Assembly: GCA_947380295.1 (NCBI GenBank)
Contig: CANCQK010000004.1
Coordinates: 1 to 64,000 of the forward strand
Source of the DNA: Bdellovibrionales bacterium
Lineage (GTDB): Bacteria > Bdellovibrionota > UBA1018
Direction: 5' to 3'
DNA length: 64,000 nucleotides
In this document: piece after piece, positions 29,591-49,315 of the stretch
How positions within the stretch are numbered: the first letter of the stretch is position 1
Layout of the letters: every line of letters starts with the position of its first letter
Program-made: the position numbers and the translations under genes
The notes under the pieces: generated by a model
Told to the model about the DNA's origin: nothing
Databases searched by the model: none
What the model saw: only the letters and a program-made list of their open reading frames with translations

Positions 29591-30811
29591 TTAAAGCGAT
29601 CTCTTTTTGTCTAGAATAAGAGATCTACAAATTGGGCATCGGGCTCCCTCGCCTTGGGTTCTTATCCAGCGGCGTAAGCAGTGAGGATGGAATCGGTGAG
29701 CACAGGGCGTGCTGATTGCGTTATTGGAGTCGAGAGAATTGGGCTCTAGGCAAATGACACAGTTATCGGGTGCAGTATCTGGTGCTGCAGGTAGTTCTTC
29801 TAGTGGACTCTGAGTCCGCGCTACGACCAGCGTTCTGGATGATTGGATAGGAGCACAAGGAGCGGAAGTAGGCATTCTGGGAGCTCCTGTTTGACTGTGG
29901 CTGGTGCTGTTCTCTTGATGAGGATGAAATAGATCCGCCAAGTATAAATTTAAAAAAATCATAAACAAATAATCTGAGGTAATGACCTCGGGGACTTCGA
30001 CGAGACTGAGGTGGGAGGTGAGGTGGGTGGCAGCGGTAGATCGTTCGTGTAAATTGACTGAGCATATCGGTGTCCCAAGTAGACTTCTGGCTGTATGATA
30101 ATCAGCTGCTCTCTCCGGAGAGGGCACCGTAGTTGATAAAATTTCTGGAGAAGTAGTGGAGAGGCAGTGTGCTGTTCCAGCTGTAATGGCGAACGAGGAA
30201 AATGCTAAGGCACCTGGTGCCTGTGTGATCGCAGCAGCTGCTAGTCCTGCTGTCCAAAAAGAAATTGATACCGGCAACGGGTTGAAACATGCCAGTTTAA
30301 GTCTATTTTTGAGGTGAAGATCGGTGCGAATGTAGTGTTCTACCTGCTCAACCCAGGGGCGTAGGCGTCCAGCGCGTCCGTCAGGTAAGCTGGCCAGGAT
30401 ATCGATGACTAATTGATCTGCCTGCTGAATGTGTCGCTCCGTGATGTGGGGCAATGTCTCAGCTTTGATCCAGAGGGTTTTTGCTTGCTCGAGACGACGA
30501 TCGAGAGCTCCGATGACATAATCAGCGTCGGACTGAACGAAATCATCAGCTCCAGGCGAAAAGTGGGCCCTTGAGAGGTTTCTAAAAAAAATAGGAGAAG
30601 GACAGCTTTTCAAGTGTGAAGAAAGGTTCACACGTATAATTTCTTGAATTTGATCAAAAGCTTGGTGTGCATCGGGTGAATGGGTGGCGGCTAAAATGGG
30701 GCGAATTGGACTCAGGATTCCAATTGAGAATAGGGCTATAGTTTCTGCGATCTTGGAAAAAGTAGGAAGTTCGAATTTTCTAAATCGCCCGAGAGAGTTC
30801 ATGAATTTCAT
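29591..30811 (-). CDS. Exported RING-H2 finger protein, putative E3 ubiquitin ligase effector
   Basis: About 406 residues from the ATG at 30811; a TTG start at 30865 would add 18. The N terminus has a basic segment and hydrophobic stretch ending in RPILAA, a plausible signal peptide. A second hydrophobic region (WTAGLAAAAITQAPGALAF) may span a membrane. The C terminus has a complete RING-H2 finger: CVICLEP, then CAHRFHPHC, then CPIC. The zinc-ligand order C-x2-C-x14-C-x-H-x2-H-x2-C-x-C-x2-C is that of eukaryotic E3 ligases, which recruit E2-ubiquitin. Bacteria lack classical ubiquitin, so a host target is inferred. The gene precedes the phosphatase on the same strand. Confidence 0.75.
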   Translation of the reverse strand: MKFMNSLGRFRKFELPTFSKIAETIALFSIGILSPIRPILAATHSPDAHQAFDQIQEIIRVNLSSHLKSCPSPIFFRNLSRAHFSPGADDFVQSDADYVIGALDRRLEQAKTLWIKAETLPHITERHIQQADQLVIDILASLPDGRAGRLRPWVEQVEHYIRTDLHLKNRLKLACFNPLPVSISFWTAGLAAAAITQAPGALAFSSFAITAGTAHCLSTTSPEILSTTVPSPERAADYHTARSLLGTPICSVNLHERSTAATHLTSHLSLVEVPEVITSDYLFMIFLNLYLADLFHPHQENSTSHSQTGAPRMPTSAPCAPIQSSRTLVVARTQSPLEELPAAPDTAPDNCVICLEPNSLDSNNAISTPCAHRFHPHCLRRWIRTQGEGARCPICRSLILDKKRSL

Positions 30812-30898
30812 CTGATCACTGGTCTTTTGGAATGCTGTGTTTTTTCTGGTTTTGATGGTTGACAATGCTTCTGATTCTTCAATAGAGTGGCTGACTCT

Positions 30899-32052: not shown

Positions 32053-32901
32053 TTAGCCGCCCACTATACACCGGACCGATCCGCCGATGTTGCCAAGTTC
32101 CTCGTAAGAGACACTGCCACTGTTACCTCGGAAAACGGTGGCGCGATCATGGATGGGCTGAGTGGACGCCGACCAATACCATCGGCCAGTTATATTCGGA
32201 ATCAGGTCTCGACGATAACCAGCAACATCCAGGTCACCAGGCTCAAACGATTCAAGCTCGTATGCAGGGAGATCAGGATCATCAGGGTGAATATTACCGC
32301 CCTCGTAGGCACGCCAATAAGGATCAGGCTGGCTTGAACCCATCGTTCGGGAAAGTGCGATGTATTCGTCTTTCGTAGGCAATCTTGAGCCGCCACCGAG
32401 TCCAGTGCAGTAAGCTACTGCGTCTTTTTGATTCATAGTTCTCGGAGCCACACCACTCCAGATCACGCCTGCGACCTCGTACATCGGTCCGACCTTCGCA
32501 AATTCCGGAGTGACCTTTGTTCTCACTGAGGCGTCAAATCGACTTAGAGGGGTAATAGAGGTGCCCTGCAACCTGGTTTGTTCCGAGGCTAACCTCTCAC
32601 TTTCTGCGATGATTCGCGGTCTTTCGATGATCTCACGATGAAAGCGGATGTCACTTGCAGTCTGTTGATTGGTACAAGCTATTTGTTTGCTTGAAGCAGA
32701 ATCTAAATAATCGGAAATCTTGAGCATCACATCCCGCGGCATGTTGGTAAATTTTGTCGGTCGAGCCAACGGCGTAGGCTGGGGCACCATGCCTGAATAC
32801 CCGCCGTGTGCAGGTTTGTAGTCATTGCTACCAGCAAACACCGGCGCGATTTGCGCACTCAATGCCAGAGATATTAAACATTTTTTAATGATCTTTTTCA
32901 T
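32053..32901 (-). CDS. Exported F-box protein with C-terminal Lcl_C/DUF1566-like domain (Fb1)
   Basis: A signal peptide (MKKIIKK..., cleavage at PVFA) leads to an F-box-like motif at about 48-85: NMPRDVMLKISDYLDSAS and IACTNQQ, matching the 'LP-x-D-V-L/M-x-x-I-x-x-Y/F-L' pattern by which F-box proteins bind SKP1 in cullin ubiquitin ligases. Residues about 140-282 are a Lcl_C/DUF1566-type domain (MYEVAGVIWSGVAP, SRLPTKDEYIAL, YWSAST, SVRC) of C-type-lectin-like fold. The same C-terminal domain is found on the RBR protein at 38.5 kb. The fusion suggests a substrate receptor: F-box to the ligase, lectin-like domain to the target. A shared promoter and hairpin precede it. Confidence 0.72.
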   Translation of the reverse strand: MKKIIKKCLISLALSAQIAPVFAGSNDYKPAHGGYSGMVPQPTPLARPTKFTNMPRDVMLKISDYLDSASSKQIACTNQQTASDIRFHREIIERPRIIAESERLASEQTRLQGTSITPLSRFDASVRTKVTPEFAKVGPMYEVAGVIWSGVAPRTMNQKDAVAYCTGLGGGSRLPTKDEYIALSRTMGSSQPDPYWRAYEGGNIHPDDPDLPAYELESFEPGDLDVAGYRRDLIPNITGRWYWSASTQPIHDRATVFRGNSGSVSYEELGNIGGSVRCIVGG

Positions 32902-37213: not shown

Positions 37214-38170
37214 TTGAAGAAGTTAATTAAAATCAGTTTATTTTTGATGTCATTGACAGCGCAAGTTTCACCTGCAGGGGCGGGGCAGAAGTTTTTTCGT
37301 CCAGCGAGAGATGCGTGGCAGCCTGAAGTGCCCGGTCCATTGAATGATTTACCTGATAGCGTGTTGTATGAAATAGCGAGAAACTTAGACCCAGTGTCGT
37401 GTGCCCGGTTTGCTTGTACCCACAAGGCGGGGCATGAGGCTGCAAATGAAGTTAAAAAGCAGGCGTTTAAGATCGAGTTTGCTAAAATGATCCTGCTCAC
37501 GATCCCTGAAGTGACGCAAGCCGATGTGGCGCATCTGCAGCAAGTAGGAGTGGAGACCTCCATTCGCGCGCCGCTGAGATCATTCAAGATCAGCGATACT
37601 CCGATTACGATTGGCCTTTATCACGCCGTGATGGGGCACTACCCTGATCTGAGCCTAAGTAATTGGTCACATAAACCAGGCGAGAGCGATGCGCTTCGAG
37701 CCCGATGGGAAATGAACCCTGACCTCCCTCTGACCAATACGACGGTAGCTGAAGATCAGGCTTTTATTGCTGCGCTCAATACGAGAACGGGACGACATTT
37801 CAGGCTCCCGACTGAAAGCGAAGTGGAGTACTCGATCCGCGGTCGCATTCAAGGCGCAATTACGACTACGAGATACCATTTTGGAAATGACGGTAACGAA
37901 GTTTGCAACCGGACTTGGTTCAATTTAAACTCAGGCGATCAAGCTCACGGCGTGCGAGAGCCTCTGCCGGGTCGCACCCTCGATGATTCTCGGAACTCCT
38001 TTGGTCTGATTCACTCGACAGGTAATGTTTGGAATCGAAGCTCGGAGGGTGTGGTTCGGGGCGGCTCGTTCGGCAGCAGCGCCGGCTACACGCAGTCGTT
38101 CTTTCGGGGCGGTGGTTACTCTGAGTACCGCTTCGCGAATTTTGGCTCCCGCTTAGTCGAGGACTTTTAA
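37214..38170 (+). CDS. Exported F-box protein with C-terminal FGE-sulfatase-like domain (Fb2)
   Basis: The likely start is TTG 37214, with GGAG eight bases before it, giving a signal peptide (KKLIKISLFLMSL, cleavage at PAGA) that aligns with that of Fb1. Residues about 38-75 hold the F-box: LNDLPDSVLYEIARNLDPVS and FACTHKA. Residues about 120-318 are an FGE-sulfatase (SUMF1-like) domain: FRLPTESEVEYSIRG, HFGND, NSFGLIHSTGNVW and VVRGGSF, of C-type-lectin-like fold. The C terminus (38072-38146) is a variable region (see the DGR finding). The first 25 bases after the stop match the sequence after the fragment at 41.9 kb. F-box plus lectin-like domain suggests a ligase substrate receptor. Confidence 0.72.
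   Translation: MKKLIKISLFLMSLTAQVSPAGAGQKFFRPARDAWQPEVPGPLNDLPDSVLYEIARNLDPVSCARFACTHKAGHEAANEVKKQAFKIEFAKMILLTIPEVTQADVAHLQQVGVETSIRAPLRSFKISDTPITIGLYHAVMGHYPDLSLSNWSHKPGESDALRARWEMNPDLPLTNTTVAEDQAFIAALNTRTGRHFRLPTESEVEYSIRGRIQGAITTTRYHFGNDGNEVCNRTWFNLNSGDQAHGVREPLPGRTLDDSRNSFGLIHSTGNVWNRSSEGVVRGGSFGSSAGYTQSFFRGGGYSEYRFANFGSRLVEDF
38072..38146 (+). other. Variable region 1 of the FGE domain (Fb2)
   Basis: 25 codons between the conserved VVRGGSF and GSRLVEDF. Aligned without gaps to 40574-40648 and 41811-41885, it differs at most positions, often as NNC codons with a constant third C (for example columns 1, 2, 3, 5, 6, 13, 16, 19 and 21). Confidence 0.7.
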
Positions 38171-38295
38171 CTCTCAGTCTTCAGATTTCTTGAATAAACC
38201 TGGGGACGAATAAACCTGGGGACGGAGCAAACCTGGGTGTTTACCGGTACCTGGATCAGCATTGGGATGCACTTGAGAAAGAGCTGAGTTTGTAA
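38171..38295 (+). repeat. Composite tail after Fb2: methyltransferase 3' end copy, repeats and a coding relic
   Basis: After the stop, TCAGTCTTCAGATTTCTT repeats the last 18 bases of the exported methyltransferase gene (41913 region, opposite strand). Then two copies of AATAAACCTGGGGACG (38193 and 38209) and the core CTGGGGACGGAGC. From 38232 a short frame reads GVYRYLDQHWDALEKEL and ends at TAA 38295; a second copy of this relic is at 40803-40870. Confidence 0.6.
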
Positions 38296-38334
38296 TTCTA
38301 TTCAAAATTAATTAAATCTAAAAAATTGAATGGT

Positions 38335-38450
38335 GTCTATTTTTTAGTCACTCGAAAAACTCTTAGCAATGTCCCAGCTGACACACCTGCACTTAACTCA
38401 TTGAATATACAATATTCACGCGCCGCCGCAAGTTGGCGCGGGGCTTGCTT
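38335..38450 (+). promoter_or_regulatory. Promoter-leader element copy B, upstream of the RBR gene
   Basis: GTCTATTTTTTAGTCAC (38335-38351), ten bases, CTTAGCAATGT (38362-38372), 46 bases, hairpin CGCGCC-N10-GGCGCG (38419-38440), then GGGCTTGCTT. It matches the Fb1 copy in blocks and spacing. The start codon follows after about 52 bases. Confidence 0.7.
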
Positions 38451-38502
38451 CCTTTGGATGGGGTGTGGTCGCTCCATTGGGAGCTTTGGAGGAATTTTGA
38501 GT

Positions 38503-40035
38503 ATGAGAAGTTTAATTAAGAATTTGGTTCTTGTATCAGTTTTAGTTCTAGGTTTTTACAACGAGGCTTACGCTGTGAAGTCTTGTACCACCTGTTTTGG
38601 TGATGTAACGGATGCCCAAGTGGCGAAGAAGGAAGCCCTCCAATGCCCAGCGGGCCACGCGATTGATCAAGAGTGTCTCACTCATCAAGTGAAGAGCCAC
38701 GAAGATCTCAAAGTTTTACGAACTCAGGGTTTAGGCTGTTGCGGAGTCGGCGGTGCTGGAGACGCATGCAAGCATAAGTTTCCGCTCGATGAAGTGAGGG
38801 CGCTCTTGGCGCCTGCAGAGCAGGTAGCACTGCAAGCCCGATTCGATCGAGCTACGAGCCCGGTGGAAGAGAGTAAGACTAAAGAAGAAGTGAATCGTCT
38901 CAAGCTCGGATTCACAGAGTCTTTTGTGATTCAGTGCCCTACAGATGGCTGCGGCGCAGCTTGCGATCGAATCGAAGGATGTAATGCAGCTCAATGTCAG
39001 AGCGGAGAATGTGGAAACCGATTTTGTTACCTTTGCCTTGAATCTCAAGAGGATAATACAACCGGTCACGCTCACGCGAGAGCTCACAGTAATAATTACT
39101 GGGAACAACGTCCTGGCTATTTGGAACGCTACCACTGGTTGCTGGCTAGAAAAAGTCTAACCGCTTTATTGAAAAGTAAAGTTGAAGAGTCGACTCGCAA
39201 TCAAGCCCTCGAAGAGAGTCAGGCTCTCCTCAAAGAAAAGAAAATGTGGCCCATGCCTGCCGGATTGGCAGCTGGTATGTGGCTTGAGCAAGTGAGATCC
39301 AATGCTGAACTCACTCCGGCTGCAAAGATTGAGCTTTTACAAAACGAAGCGATCTATCGCCGGCAGATGAAAGACAAAAAGAACGGAGATCTCGTTGAAG
39401 CAGAAATCCGCCGACTCGGTGGCCTGGTCCTAGCGTCCCTCGACGTGAAAGACGCTGCAGGCATCGGCGGTCCAGCTGCTGGCGCCGGAGTCGCTGCACC
39501 CAGAATCGCTCAAGTCGCTGCGGTAGCCCAAGTAGCCCCCGCCCACCCAGTGGCCCAGGTAGCTGTTCCAGCTCACCAGCCTTTTGCAGCACCTCACCCA
39601 GTCGCAGCGCACGGCATCGCGCCAGTCTTGGAAGATTACCCGCAATTCAATCAGCTCAGCCGGCAGTTCCGAGCACTTGGAAATATGTACGAAGTCGCAG
39701 GCTTGATCTGGAGTGGTGTTGCTCCACAAAACATGAATCAACGAGATGCAGTTGCTTACTGTGCGGGCTTGGGTGGCGGCGCTAGATTGCCTACGAAAGA
39801 CGAATACATCGCTCTGGGCCAAGCCATGGGTGGAAGATACCCTGAATGGGAGGGTTTTGGCTACCACGTTCCGGGTTATGCTAGAAACCTAATTCCAGAT
39901 ATGCATAACAGACTTTTTTGGTCGGCTTCATTGACGCGTCAAGAACATGGTGACGCCTTCTTCTTCAATGGCTATTACGGTAACGTCGATCAATACTCCC
40001 GTGACTACGACAGATCGGTCCGGTGCGTTCGTTAG
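38503..40035 (+). CDS. Exported RBR-like (RING1 plus RING2) protein with Lcl_C/DUF1566-like domain
   Basis: ATG 38503 has GGAGG about ten bases upstream; an upstream frame reaches 38326 but covers the promoter. The signal peptide ends at NEAYA. Residues about 26-100 are RING1-like: CTTC, LQCPAGHAIDQEC, and GDACKHKFPLDEVRALL, the form of RBR RING1 ends. Residues about 144-178 are RING2-like: CPTDGCGAACDRIEGC, AQC, GEC, FCYLC, which aligns with Parkin RING2, where the Cys equivalent to that in 'EGCN' carries ubiquitin. A helical region and an Ala/Pro/His linker (about 310-370) follow. Residues about 394-510 are the Lcl_C-like domain shared with Fb1 (MYEVAGLIWSGVAP, ARLPTKDEYIAL, FWSAS, SVRC). 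Bacterial exported RBR proteins are very rare to my knowledge. Ligase activity is inferred. Confidence 0.75.
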   Translation: MRSLIKNLVLVSVLVLGFYNEAYAVKSCTTCFGDVTDAQVAKKEALQCPAGHAIDQECLTHQVKSHEDLKVLRTQGLGCCGVGGAGDACKHKFPLDEVRALLAPAEQVALQARFDRATSPVEESKTKEEVNRLKLGFTESFVIQCPTDGCGAACDRIEGCNAAQCQSGECGNRFCYLCLESQEDNTTGHAHARAHSNNYWEQRPGYLERYHWLLARKSLTALLKSKVEESTRNQALEESQALLKEKKMWPMPAGLAAGMWLEQVRSNAELTPAAKIELLQNEAIYRRQMKDKKNGDLVEAEIRRLGGLVLASLDVKDAAGIGGPAAGAGVAAPRIAQVAAVAQVAPAHPVAQVAVPAHQPFAAPHPVAAHGIAPVLEDYPQFNQLSRQFRALGNMYEVAGLIWSGVAPQNMNQRDAVAYCAGLGGGARLPTKDEYIALGQAMGGRYPEWEGFGYHVPGYARNLIPDMHNRLFWSASLTRQEHGDAFFFNGYYGNVDQYSRDYDRSVRCVR

Positions 40036-40056
40036 GCCGCTTGGAGAGAACACTAG

Positions 40057-40093
40057 GCGGGACTATTTGAGTCGAATGGCTCAGTAGTCCCGC
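40057..40093 (+). terminator. Terminator-like hairpin after the RBR gene
   Basis: Arms GCGGGACTA (40057-40065) and TAGTCCCGC (40085-40093) pair over nine bases around a 19-base loop with internal GAGTC/GCTC. Only three T follow, so termination may be weak. Confidence 0.5.
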
Positions 40094-40417
40094 TTTAAAG
40101 TGAATGGACACCAGGGGTCAGCTAATTGCGGTGGAATATCTTGAGGCAGGTTTTTAGTCATTTTCTGGTTTGGCAGAAAAGGTGCCATGGGGAACTTGGG
40201 GACGGAGCAGATCCAGAGCACTGAAGGCTACTTCGGCATAACTTAAAAGCCCGGTCATTTTCGAAGGTCGACGTGCTAAAATCAAAAAATGAACTTAAGT
40301 CACTAAAACCATTGGCATTTAACCTAGGTTGTTTGAGAGAGCGAACAAACCTGGGGACGGAGCGCATTTTTTTTCTTTGAGGTCGAGCCTAGTGGACTTG
40401 ATAAATTTATCAAGTTA
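40094..40417 (+). other. Gap with two copies of the dispersed repeat
   Basis: No gene is seen. CTTGGGGACGGAGC lies at 40195-40208, and a 30-base segment with core CTGGGGACGGAGC (40351-40363) at 40343-40372, identical to 41503-41532. Just after the second copy begins the truncated FGE fragment region. Confidence 0.5.
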
Positions 40418-40672
40418 TTGGATACTTTTGGGGGTGAAGCTACGGCCAGAATATCCACTGAAAATAACTATCAATGGGCGCAGTTTGAGTCGTGTAGGGG
40501 CCAGCATGAGCTCCGTCCCTCTTGGAGCGCCTGGATCCGAAGTGCCGAGGGTGTGATTCGGGGCAGTTCCTTCAACTACTACTTTGACGACGCAGTTTCG
40601 TTGAATTACAACAGCGGTTGCGGCGAGCACCGTGCCGCGAATATTGGCACCCACCTAGTCGAGGACCTGTAA
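40418..40672 (+). pseudogene. 5'-truncated FGE-domain fragment 2
   Basis: The frame's second half (from about 40526) encodes WIRSAEGVIRGSSF, a variable stretch and GTHLVEDL, homologous to the end of Fb2. The first half is unrelated, so only the C-terminal piece was copied. It has no signal peptide, F-box or convincing ribosome binding site. Its variable region (40574-40648) has the same length as in Fb2 but a different sequence. It may be a dead remnant or a donor of variable cassettes. Confidence 0.6.
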
Positions 40673-40700
40673 CTCTCGGCCCTCTTACCCTGGAAAGACC

Positions 40701-40713
40701 TTTGGGACGGAGT
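40701..40713 (+). repeat. Degenerate copy of the dispersed repeat
   Basis: TTTGGGACGGAGT resembles the core CTGGGGACGGAGC and follows FGE fragment 2, as other copies border the FGE units. Confidence 0.35.
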
Positions 40714-40802
40714 CAGAGTACTTTTTTTAAAGTCGTAAAGTAAGGAAAAGAGGGGAGCAGCATCAGCCCCTAGAGCCTCGGCCCTGGTCGCGCTTCATGC
40801 GA

Positions 40803-40870
40803 TTGGTGTTTACCGCTACCAGGATACGCATTGGGATGCGATCGAGAAGGAACTACGGATAAAGGACTAG
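40803..40870 (+). pseudogene. Second copy of the 'VYRYxDxHWDAxEKEL' relic
   Basis: The frame reads GVYRYQDTHWDAIEKEL and ends at TAG 40868-40870. It matches the relic at 38232-38295. No start or full-length gene is seen in either place. I do not recognise the parent family. Confidence 0.4.
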
Positions 40871-41214
40871 GAAGCCTTTAATTTCTCAGCAATCAGCTTA
40901 TTCAGACTCTTATTCTTAAAGCTTGCTTCAATTGCTAACTTTCTGTGGAGTGCTGGCTCGACTCTAAGCGGGATATTTCCCGAAAAAGACTTCTCTGCCA
41001 GGGGTTGAGGGACTTCTTGATCACGCTTTTTAAGACTTTCGATATATGCCCCAATCGCATCCTCGGCCATCTCCAGAGCCTCTTTTTGAGTCTCCCCGTG
41101 GGTGATGCATCCTTCAAGCTCTGGCACAATCGCAATATAGGCAGAGTCTTCAGGACTCCAGTGGATCATGATTTGATATTTGTATTTAGGCTTAGTTTTA
41201 GATTTCTTTTCCAT
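40867..41214 (-). CDS. hicB: HicB-type antitoxin
   Basis: From the ATG at 41214 (GGAGG just upstream) the protein has 115 residues. The N-terminal part is HicB-like: IHWSPEDSAYIAIVPELEGC, then THGETQKEALEMAEDAIGAYI. The C-terminal PLRVEPALHRKLAIEAS and SLNKLIAEKL is a ribbon-helix-helix DNA-binding domain, which would repress the operon. It follows hicA by 8 bases. Confidence 0.9.
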   Translation of the reverse strand: MEKKSKTKPKYKYQIMIHWSPEDSAYIAIVPELEGCITHGETQKEALEMAEDAIGAYIESLKKRDQEVPQPLAEKSFSGNIPLRVEPALHRKLAIEASFKNKSLNKLIAEKLKAS

Positions 41215-41222
41215 ATTACCTC

Positions 41223-41438
41223 CTACAATAGAACCTTCTGGGCCTGCTTGATCTGATATAATTTCAGGTCCTTCCCATGAGTTGCGAGTACAAAGCGGGC
41301 ACCATCTTTGAACCAAACTTCGTGACTTCCTGTTGTGTGGTCAAGTGACCAATTTAATTTTTTGAGTAGTGACTTTAGCTCCATTGCATCGATATAGCCT
41401 GATTTCAACTTTGCGATGAGTTTTTCAGTCTTGCTCAT
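41223..41438 (-). CDS. hicA: HicA-type mRNA interferase toxin
   Basis: ATG 41438 gives 71 residues, typical for HicA. The double-stranded RNA-binding-like fold is seen at MELKSLLKKLNWSL, and the catalytic His in HTTGSHEVWF. HicA cleaves mRNA and is neutralised by HicB, encoded next. The longer frame upstream of 41438 runs through the operator and the FGE fragment on the other strand and is not real. Confidence 0.9.
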   Translation of the reverse strand: MSKTEKLIAKLKSGYIDAMELKSLLKKLNWSLDHTTGSHEVWFKDGARFVLATHGKDLKLYQIKQAQKVLL

Positions 41439-41444
41439 ATTTAG

Positions 41445-41468
41445 AATGATATCATAAGTGATATCATT
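41445..41468 (-). promoter_or_regulatory. hicAB operator: perfect inverted repeat
   Basis: Arms AATGATATCA and TGATATCATT are perfect 10-base inverted repeats around TAAG, six bases before the hicA start. The position fits autorepression by HicB's ribbon-helix-helix domain. Confidence 0.75.
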
Positions 41469-41502
41469 GTCAATGGGGTGTTTTTTTATCCAAAGAATGG
41501 GG

Positions 41503-41532
41503 GAACAAACCTGGGGACGGAGCGCATTTTTT
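41503..41532 (+). repeat. Dispersed repeat, copy before FGE fragment 3
   Basis: A 30-base stretch with core CTGGGGACGGAGC (41511-41523), identical to 40343-40372. FGE homology begins three to six bases after it. Confidence 0.65.
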
Positions 41533-41534
41533 CT

Positions 41535-41909
41535 CCTTTCAGGCTCCCCACCGAAAGCGAAGTGGAGTACTCGATTCGCGGTCGCACTCAAGGGGCAATC
41601 ACGACTACGAGATACCATTTTGGGAATGATCATATGGAAGTCCGCAACCGTGCTTGGCTCCATGCAAACTCAGGTTTTCAAGCTAACGGCGTGCGAGAGC
41701 CTTTGCCAGGTCGTATCCTCGATGATTCTCGGAACTCCTTTGGTCTGATTCATGCGATAGGTCATGTTTGGATCCGAAGTGCGGAAGGTGTGGTTAGGGG
41801 CGGTTCCTTCCGCACCATCATTGACAGCGCGTTGTCGTCCTTTTGTTACGGCGGTAGCGGCGGGTACCGCTACGCCGATATCGGCTCCCGCCTAGTCGAG
41901 GACTTGTAA
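41535..41909 (+). pseudogene. 5'-truncated FGE-domain fragment 3
   Basis: The frame is open from FRLPTESEVEYSIRG through NSFGLIHAIGHVW and VVRGGSF to GSRLVEDL. It is very similar to Fb2 from 37799 to 38071 and after 38146, but differs sharply in the 25 codons 41811-41885. It lacks signal peptide and F-box. The 5' break lies at the dispersed repeat; the 3' side runs directly into the methyltransferase gene end. The reading frame being intact suggests it is recent or kept. Confidence 0.65.
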
Positions 41910-46499: not shown

Positions 46500-48170
46500 A
46501 TGGCAAAACAACCTGGCAGCAACAAAATCACGACGAGTAGTACGGCTGAGTATTTCTCTAAAAACCTCCAGCAGGTGGGTTTTTCTTCTCAGACCAAAGC
46601 CATTTTGACCACTCTCAAGGAAGCCGTGGACAACGCCCTTGATGCATGTGAAGAGCATGGCATTCTTCCCGAAATATCAATTCTCGTCGAAAAAGTAGGT
46701 CAGGGCTCTCTTAAAAATTCTGATCAGATCCGAATTCGGGTCGAAGACAATGGTCCAGGGATCGACCCAGAAGACGTCCCCAAGGTTTTTGGTGAGTATT
46801 TAGCCTCTTCCAAGTTCGGTCGCGGTCGTTGTTCTCGGGGACAGCAAGGAATCGGAATTTCTGCTGCAACGACCTGGGCTCAGCTCACGAGTGCAATTGG
46901 AGCTCGTGTCACGACCAAGACTAAATCCATGAGAAAGGCGCTGTCTTGTCTCGTTGAGGTCGATATTAAGCACAATCGAGGTGTTCTTAAAGATCGTGCG
47001 ATGTTTGACTGGGATCGCGCCCATGGTACGGCAGTCGAGTTCGTTGTGGATGGTCGAGTTCAGCTGAACGGAGAAGCTGGGTTATTGAATTACCTCAGTG
47101 GTACGACCTTAGTTAATCCTCACCTGACTTTGACCTATAAGCTGCCCGATTTTGAGCCACATCGAGTCGACCGTGTGAGTACCTCAATCCCAGAAATTCC
47201 CGAGGCCACAGAGCCTCATCCCCACACGATGAAGCTTGGAGAGTTCATTGCCCACTCCCATCTTTTCGGCCGAGTCAAAGTGAATGCCTGGCTTAAAAAG
47301 GGATTCTCCCGAGTCAATGAAGGAACACTCAAAGACCTTAGTCAGGGCGGATTTCCAGCGAGTCTGCTTGAAAAATCTGTTGATTCTTTGGGTGATACGC
47401 AGTTCAAAAATCTTTTCGTTGCGCTTCAAAATCTTAAGCTGATGGCCCCTTCGACTAAATCGGTTATTTCGATCGGAGAGGAGGGCTTTGCTAAGAGTAT
47501 CAAGCGCCTCGGCGCAATTGACTTTTTTGCGGTGGTTTCGAGGAAACCAACGATTTGTGATTTTAAGCCAGTTCAAATCGAAGTGGCTGTTGCGCGCCTT
47601 GAAGATCGCTCGGTTGAAGCAGAGTCTGCTGCGCAGGTGCTGCGTTTCGCAAATCGCGTTCCTCTTCAGTTTGATAAGTCCTCCTGTGCGATTGTTCACG
47701 CGATTGAGTCCGTGAACTGGCGCTCCTATGGGATTGTCCAACCGAAGAATGCTTTACCCCAGGGGCCATATATTGTTGCAGTCAGTGTGGTTTCTCCGTT
47801 TATTAAATTCAAAAATGCTTCCAAGGAGACGATTGACGCCTCGGATGAGCTAGTCGAAGAGATTCGTCGTGCTCTGATTCAAGCGGGCCAAAAGCTCTCT
47901 AAACATATCCGTCGAGAAGTCAAAGCGAATGAGTTGGAGGAGAAAATTCGTCACATCGAGCAATTCTGCCCCATCCTGGTGGATGGGCTTTGTAGGATTA
48001 CAGAGGCAAGCGCTGCTCGAAGAAAAAAAGCAGAGGATGGCCTAGTGAAGATCTTGGGTCGTGACGCACATGTCACCAAGACAGAGCTCGATGAAGCCCA
48101 TGCAGTCTTAGAAGCACAAAAAAGTTCGATTTTGGCAGATGAAATTATTGCCGAAGAAGTGAGAGACTAA
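46500..48170 (+). CDS. top6B: DNA topoisomerase VI subunit B
   Basis: A GHKL ATPase with KEAVDNALDAC (N-box, about 41-51), VEDNGPGIDPEDV (G1) and GRGRCSRGQQGIGIS (G2), followed by the H2TH and transducer regions (PAFTKSVIS-like APSTKSVISIG with the switch Lys). The start STAEYFSKNLQQVGF is typical of Top6B. With subunit A it forms a type IIB enzyme that relaxes and decatenates DNA. It is mainly archaeal and plant and sporadic in bacteria. The stop and the next start overlap by one base. Confidence 0.93.
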   Translation: MAKQPGSNKITTSSTAEYFSKNLQQVGFSSQTKAILTTLKEAVDNALDACEEHGILPEISILVEKVGQGSLKNSDQIRIRVEDNGPGIDPEDVPKVFGEYLASSKFGRGRCSRGQQGIGISAATTWAQLTSAIGARVTTKTKSMRKALSCLVEVDIKHNRGVLKDRAMFDWDRAHGTAVEFVVDGRVQLNGEAGLLNYLSGTTLVNPHLTLTYKLPDFEPHRVDRVSTSIPEIPEATEPHPHTMKLGEFIAHSHLFGRVKVNAWLKKGFSRVNEGTLKDLSQGGFPASLLEKSVDSLGDTQFKNLFVALQNLKLMAPSTKSVISIGEEGFAKSIKRLGAIDFFAVVSRKPTICDFKPVQIEVAVARLEDRSVEAESAAQVLRFANRVPLQFDKSSCAIVHAIESVNWRSYGIVQPKNALPQGPYIVAVSVVSPFIKFKNASKETIDASDELVEEIRRALIQAGQKLSKHIRREVKANELEEKIRHIEQFCPILVDGLCRITEASAARRKKAEDGLVKILGRDAHVTKTELDEAHAVLEAQKSSILADEIIAEEVRD

Positions 48171-49315
48171 TGCCTAGCACAGATCAAAATATACCAAAAC
48201 TTAGCAAAGAACTCTGTAGTCGCCTGCTGTCAGACCTTGAGCGGGCGAAACGGCCAGTTTTGTATGCAACTAAATGCTCACTTGATAATTCAATTTACAA
48301 CCACCGGAATGGTTACCTCACGCCTGGCCCAAAGAAGGTTGCGACCGAGCTCAATGTGAGTTCAGTTAAGAAAATGGCTCGTGCCATCTTCATGTTAGAG
48401 GTTTTGCTTCGTAACATCGATACTGGCGCTGTGAATACAAAGCGTGAACTTTACTACATCAGTAAGGGTGAAATTAAACACAATCCTAGCTTGAGGGCTT
48501 TGGATTTTGCGGATCAAAATGAATCCGATGATATTATCGACTTTATCTGTGAGATGCTTGAGTGTTACCGCGAAGAGCTGAATTGTTATGCAAATGATCG
48601 AGGCGGACAGACTTATTCTCAGCAGCTGGTCGTCACTGAAACGCTTCCGGACGGGGACAAGGCAGTGGTGGATCTCTCTAAGTTGGGAACAACCCCGTTT
48701 CAGCCTAAAAATAGACCTCAGAACTTGAAGCTTTCTGCTCGGAAGAAAATTGATTTCTGCTTGATTGTTGAATCCGAAGGTACTGCAAACACCCTCGTTG
48801 CTAACGGTTTTACTAAGCGTCACGCAAGCATCCTTCTGGGTGCTCAGGGTGTTCCGTCCAATGCAGTGCGGGGCTGGTGTAAGCTCATTCAGGATCAACT
48901 CAGCGTTCCCTTGTACTTCTTCGGAGATCTTGACGCGTACACCATGCAGAACATCTTTAGAACCTTGAAGGCAGGGTCCGCTGCCAGCTTGATCCGTAAT
49001 TCGGATTATAGCGCTCCTGATGTGAGATTTTTAGGTGTTTTGCCTGAGGACATTAAAAAGTACGACCTGAATGACTATCCCGTCAAAGAAAACGATGCTC
49101 AAGAAGTTCGTGCGCTGAAAAAAGCTCACGACGCCTTGAAAAATGACCCCTTTTTCCAAGATAAGAAGAACAAAGGGTTGGCTCAAATTTTGCGGTGGCT
49201 TCTTGAAAATAAGCGTCGTTGTGAGCAACAAGCGTTTTTTACGGTCGATCCCCGCGACCCCACTATGCCTGAAAAAATCATCGTGGATAAAATCAAGCGC
49301 GGTAACTTTGTTTAG
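48170..49315 (+). CDS. top6A: DNA topoisomerase VI subunit A (Spo11-like)
   Basis: 381 residues. The winged-helix domain holds the DNA-cleaving Tyr in TKRELYYIS (about 95). The Toprim domain has IVESEGTANTL (about 200, Glu) and FGDLDAYTMQNIF (about 253, D-x-D). It forms the A2B2 enzyme with the upstream subunit; the two are translated as a pair. All catalytic residues are present, so it should be active. Confidence 0.93.
   Translation: MPSTDQNIPKLSKELCSRLLSDLERAKRPVLYATKCSLDNSIYNHRNGYLTPGPKKVATELNVSSVKKMARAIFMLEVLLRNIDTGAVNTKRELYYISKGEIKHNPSLRALDFADQNESDDIIDFICEMLECYREELNCYANDRGGQTYSQQLVVTETLPDGDKAVVDLSKLGTTPFQPKNRPQNLKLSARKKIDFCLIVESEGTANTLVANGFTKRHASILLGAQGVPSNAVRGWCKLIQDQLSVPLYFFGDLDAYTMQNIFRTLKAGSAASLIRNSDYSAPDVRFLGVLPEDIKKYDLNDYPVKENDAQEVRALKKAHDALKNDPFFQDKKNKGLAQILRWLLENKRRCEQQAFFTVDPRDPTMPEKIIVDKIKRGNFV

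Follow-up and report, generated by a model that had tools for sequence, protein, structure and literature searches.

Hypervariable lectin tips of probable retroelement origin on predicted secreted, ubiquitin-ligase-like proteins of a Bdellovibrionales bacterium

We analyzed a stretch of 64,000 nucleotides (positions 1 to 64,000 of contig CANCQK010000004.1, hereafter the window) from the Bdellovibrionales assembly GCA_947380295.1, which comprises 2.84 Mb in 31 contigs and is 93.7% complete. The window carries three copies of an FGE-type coding region whose 3' ends resemble the targets of a diversity-generating retroelement (DGR). Copy 1 (L007; 37211-38170, + strand, TTG start assumed) is a whole gene with an FGE profile match of 1.7e-11, laid out as a signal peptide recognized by eye, an F-box-like segment and an FGE/C-type-lectin domain, and its variable region spans 23 codons (38072-38140). 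Copy 2 (40526-40672, + strand; variable region 40574-40642) and copy 3 (41532-41909, + strand; variable region 41811-41879) are 5'-truncated fragments, and the homology of copy 2 to the other window copies starts only at about 40532. Genome-wide there are ten such copies, on contigs C1, C3, C4 and C7, eight of them open from the start-side head to the end and the other two being the fragments in the window. A conserved 3' anchor, sought with up to three mismatches, occurs only at those ten places in the assembly; an extra decayed FGE piece lies on C7. FGE copies are also present in two genomes of the same genus in the phylum Bdellovibrionota, G001 (77% complete) and G002 (93% complete). A contig-level genome scan for relatives returned two loci, both of this genus, and the search patterns used on viral contigs turned up no relatives of either the FGE alignment or the reverse transcriptase (RT) described below.

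The first-pass annotation, made from the sequence of the window, had stated that 25 codons at the ends of the three copies align without gaps and that at columns 1, 2, 3, 5, 6, 13, 16, 19 and 21 the third base is a constant C while the first two bases vary. Both statements were borne out, and the pattern is found at exactly these nine columns. Third positions are not constant throughout: each pair of window copies shows third-base changes at 6 to 8 of the 25 codons. The flanks that the annotation described as nearly identical are only alike (83% over the 300 bases leading into copies 1 and 3). Among the nine copies of equal length (L010, which has an extra codon, was excluded from the pooled figures), the mean pairwise difference in the variable region is 0.43/0.51/0.30 at codon positions 1/2/3, compared with 0.10/0.08/0.23 over the preceding 18 codons (from eight copies, L011 being excluded from this set) and 0.20/0.08/0.24 in the last ten codons including the stop. 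The codon-position pattern in the variable region exceeds chance. It is cleanest in the pair L003 (C1:317k) and L004 (C3:176k), where 19 of 69 variable-region bases differ, 7/12/0 by codon position, and six codons are altered at both positions 1 and 2 with the third base kept. Elsewhere this pair shows two differences in 90 bases upstream, none in the last 30 coding bases and one in 60 bases downstream (Fisher 3e-9); over the whole similar block outside the variable region 36 of 755 bases differ, and those in the coding part fall 10/4/17 by codon position.

As outside references we used two FGE-type DGR templates, L059 and L060, which lie close to RTs in two further genomes of this phylum. The sites that differ between L003 and L004 lie at a template A in 17/19 cases for L059 (P 2e-7) and in 15/19 for L060 (P 9e-7). 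Sites with at least three different bases are likewise enriched at template A, both for L059 (18 of 31, vs 10 of 41 among other sites, P 0.004) and for L060 (16 of 31 vs 7 of 41, P 0.002), and none of the 23 whole-codon rotations of either template fits equally well. Enrichment at the A sites of L059 was seen in 54 of the 55 pairs formed from the copies, a set that takes in two same-genus copies, and in the cross-species pair L006/L043 15 of 19 differences are at A (P 5e-5). Variation in the FGE copies therefore tracks the A positions of outside templates, and the A-specific pattern whose absence from related copies would have counted against the first-pass annotation is present. The same copies combine a C-type lectin fold with a C-terminal variable region, and TvpA, a known DGR variable protein, is among the joint top fold matches of the FGE domain model.

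A DGR resides elsewhere in the assembly, on contig C26. Its RT matches RVT_1 with 50.3 bits (cut-off 29.6) and has DGR-type motifs by eye, and no DGR-specific RT model matched it. An Avd-like gene adjoins it, below the cut-offs of bAvd (3.8e-9; 37.4 bits vs 40) and of the NCBIfam Avd model (2.5e-10; 40.6 bits vs 80). In the template/variable pair 14 of 37 A sites are changed compared with 3 of 74 other sites (P 9e-6), and the C26 target is frame-shifted between head and lectin. The genome thus holds an RT, an Avd-like gene and a template, but this template fits a second family and not the FGE copies: the end that it encodes is of Lcl type, with homologous ends in two genes of the window, 38503-40035 and 32053-32901, and in C4:129778. 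The former (+ strand) has a signal peptide by eye, a RING/IBR-like head and an Lcl-type C-type lectin with its variable region at 39931-40014; the latter (- strand) has a weakly F-box-like head and a variable region at about 32178-32056. Relative to the C26 template, changes occur at 17/37 A sites and 15/74 others in the 38503 gene and at 18/37 and 8/74 in C4:129778, the counts at other sites indicating a share of ordinary drift in both. Indels kept the 32053 gene out of these counts. Since the C26 template is of Lcl type and has only a 14-base chance match (E 3.8) to the inferred FGE template, we rejected it as the writer of the FGE copies. An Lcl-type lectin end also stands behind a protein kinase domain (Pkinase 3.3e-24) at C14:67283 (L019).

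Between FGE copies 1 and 2, at 40036-40188 (- strand), lies what we read as the relic of a DGR cassette. The stop of the 38503 gene is directly followed by sequence whose C26 counterpart lies behind the template rather than behind the variable region. Next comes what remains of an RT C-terminus (40188-40066), which carries a stop and has lost 32 residues by deletion. From this template-type flank and the RT remnant we infer that the locus was formerly a full cassette, in which recombination of the variable region with the template would have removed Avd and template before the RT decayed. A tblastn search for RT or Avd pieces near other FGE copies, covering 11 stretches, placed RT only on C26 and at this relic, and Avd only on C26.

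DGRs are common in the phylum. RT homologues (E<=1e-20) occur in 17 of 143 genomes, our own counted, and DGR loci of relatives were noted in genomes G003, G054, G119, G076, G082 and G137 (L054, L070, L055, L056, L057, L071, L059 and L060). A template/variable scan covered 13 loci at 12 distinct places (L053 overlaps L035) and returned a pair at nine of them, and none for L043 (a palindrome only), L044 and L058; the nine pairs are unequal, with many non-A mismatches in L059 (23/36 at A) and few in L060 (19/20). One DGR target (L091:6796-8088) begins like a type IV pilin by eye.

In both families the heads that precede the lectin tips are eukaryote-like, stand behind apparent signal peptides and bear likenesses to parts of ubiquitin ligases. 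The F-box-like segment of L007 (37340-37447, + strand) is below the curated cut-off, which the F-box model exceeds in the relatives P0009 and P0010; the F-box-like profile matches F-box proteins with E 0.005-0.28. Legionella AnkB is a bacterial F-box effector and is not known to have a DGR-variable tip. It is among the weak matches of our profile (PDB 5k35, E 0.027). In the 38503 gene, an Rcat (RING2)-like, zinc-binding segment (38935-39036, + strand) matches the RBR ubiquitin ligase ARIH1/HHARI (PDB 1wd2, 2m9y; E 1.1e-4) and keeps a Cys at the catalytic position; unlike ARIH1, the protein is bacterial, has Ala-Ala in place of His-Met and is fused to a variable lectin. The first RING was recognized in just 1 of 22 members of the RING/IBR family (E<=0.05), and a fold search with the RING/IBR model, head and lectin being folded together, listed only lectins. 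In relatives ankyrin modules serve as heads. Alignment A2 includes one protein twice (L006 is P0002 extended upstream). Some matches are missing from A2 and A3 (P0011, P0024 and P0025; P0041, P0048, P0049 and P0050).

Taken as a whole, we regard DGR-written tips on predicted secreted, ubiquitin-ligase-like proteins as the likely explanation. Its firmest part is the DGR origin of the FGE 3' pattern, which we hold to be very probable: the hypervariable sites lie at A of outside FGE-type templates, the burst of change in L003/L004 is confined to the variable region, matches of the domain model include known variable proteins of DGRs, a resident DGR has a template that fits a second lectin-tipped family of the window, and a relic is present. 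A ligase-like effector role of these proteins is favored with less assurance. The lectin tip would be the end that chooses the ligand, the F-box-like or RING/IBR-like heads would engage the ubiquitin machinery of a eukaryotic host, and rewriting the tip would change the bound target and possibly also what gets ubiquitinated. A broader picture is offered only tentatively, namely an effector system of programmable specificity directed at eukaryotic hosts. It would consist of an arsenal of secreted ligase-like proteins with F-box, RING/IBR or, in relatives, ankyrin heads, some of which also have paired PCNA-binding-like motifs; retroelement mutagenesis would evolve their target-choosing tips, and heads and tips would be swapped as modules. 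If the explanation is true, the bacterium could re-aim ligase-like proteins at new targets, DGR retuning would let it explore further host proteins as binding partners, there would be natural libraries in which lectin-tipped binders are coupled to ligase-like heads, and the redirection of a ligase by DGR tips would become directly testable.

Several observations weigh against this explanation. Neither the anchor nor an inferred DNA probe nor an inferred protein probe detected an FGE template in the 93.7%-complete assembly, and the RVT_1 match on C26 is the single one in the assembly. The pair L007/L044 (L044 being in G001) lacks A enrichment, with 9 of 25 differences at A. PorK ties with TvpA in the fold search, with PvdO and human FGE close behind. 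The F-box match is below cut-off in every gene of this genome and absent from L003, and at E<=1 the model also matches in 12 of 14 control genomes; in the Rcat-like segment the catalytic His of ARIH1 is Ala. The DGR reading of the first-pass annotation is partly supported: the footprint is real and, measured against templates of other genomes, A-specific, but the template that it proposed, carrying AAC at the nine columns, did not turn up in the assembly. What it had named as speaking against that reading, a genome without RT or template, applies to the FGE template alone, in an assembly that is incomplete. With no matching template found in the same genome, we class the FGE copies as DGR-like or former targets and do not assign them to a complete FGE DGR. 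The template, perhaps with its own RT, may lie in the unassembled part or have been lost recently. A piece at C7:53681-53732 was considered as template and rejected: it looks like a variable region in decay and lacks Asn at columns 11, 13, 16, 19, 21 and 23.

The strongest competing view, to which we give slightly less than an even chance, is that the FGE DGR is extinct: the tips were written formerly and now undergo ordinary evolution, which would leave the Lcl-type DGR on C26 as the sole one remaining. The missing template, the lack of any RVT_1 match in G001 or G002, the decayed copies and the cassette relic in the window all agree with it. So does the pair L007/L044, which by eye has 14 of 23 variable-region residues in common and differs there 7/6/11 by codon position, as in ordinary drift; the tip of L007 thus appears to have escaped rewriting since the two diverged. 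The head of L044 resembles that of L003, and therefore heads and tips also recombine. Because L007 shares most of its variant with the homologue from the same genus, and because copies 2 and 3 are mere 5'-truncated fragments, the window copies are likely not under rewriting now. Against extinction, L003 and L004 were rewritten after a duplication more recent than the L007/L044 split and with only 36 differences in 755 bases, which makes the activity recent, and the assembly is incomplete. Whether FGE tips are still subject to a DGR today we consider an even question.

The proteins might instead be adhesins or prey-recognition tips of a bacterial predator, whose zinc-binding and F-box-like heads just anchor or stabilize the lectin and have no link to ubiquitin. 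Predators of bacteria do occur in the phylum Bdellovibrionota, and the F-box scores are weak. According to PMC10769870, moreover, the Bdellovibrio fibre tip Bd2740 has a C-type lectin fold, as our fold match also indicates. This competing reading is unlikely in our view: up to E=1 the RING/IBR family matches ARIH1 only among PDB sequences, and RING-H2 proteins and ankyrin modules accompany these proteins. The Legionella Lcl C-terminal domain (8q4e) and the Bd2740 tip (8oks) match only the lectin tip and not the RING/IBR-like head. Diversifying selection with gene conversion among paralogues, that is, selected point mutations shuffled between copies without a DGR, would draw on the many paralogues and recombining heads and tips and likewise favors changes at codon positions 1 and 2, but is very improbable given that the A positions of outside templates predict the variable sites and that in six codons of L003/L004 both of the first two bases changed while the third stayed the same.

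The DGR targets described so far comprise adhesins, phage fibres and putative defence sensors, and a search of open-licence PubMed Central found no DGR target with F-box or RING/IBR heads. Compared with TvpA of Treponema denticola (PDB 2y3c), the DGR-written tips that we favor differ in that the window proteins add an F-box-like head, some FGE copies elsewhere in the genome add PIP-like motifs, and the assembly holds no template found by us. According to PMC10907252, the DGRs of Thiohalocapsa PB-PSB1 are alike in having several loci, incomplete or remote targets, FGE-type targets and some targets best explained by action in trans; those targets are putative antigen sensors (e.g., STAND NTPase fusions), whereas here the heads are F-box-like or RING/IBR-like. 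PMC7159879 connects DGRs and FGE-type domains with ubiquitin-like conjugation, all as components of conflict systems in bacteria. In PMC7159879 and PMC8195603 the DGR terms and the ligase or RING terms stand mostly in reference lists.

Further observations concern related proteins and the surroundings of the copies. The FGE genes L004, L006 and L010, all on contig C3, each have two PIP-box-like motifs (Qxx[IM]TDYF) right behind an apparent signal peptide, and P0009 and P0013 have one each; two such motifs did not arise in any of 20000 shuffles of P0002, the protein encoded by L006. PIP boxes are binding motifs for eukaryotic PCNA. A window protein with a C-terminal RING-H2 finger (29591-30865, - strand; 1.5e-11) is a possible member of the same effector set. 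Two proteins on C1 (C1:197892, L092, and C1:166174, L101) have an apparent signal peptide and no lectin tip recognizable by eye; one carries an F-box-like match below cut-off (8.5e-4), one a RING-H2 finger over cut-off. A 36-base repeat (AAACCTGGGGACGGAGC core) recurs in the window at 38208-38243, 40343-40378, 40693-40728 and 41503-41538, just 5' of both truncated FGE fragments and after copies 1 and 2, and may mark the break points of the fragments. By eye, a HicB/HicA-like pair of small genes lies between copies 2 and 3 (40867-41663, - strand). Topoisomerase VI is unusual in bacteria, and two genes at 46500-49315 (+ strand) resemble its subunits B and A by eye.

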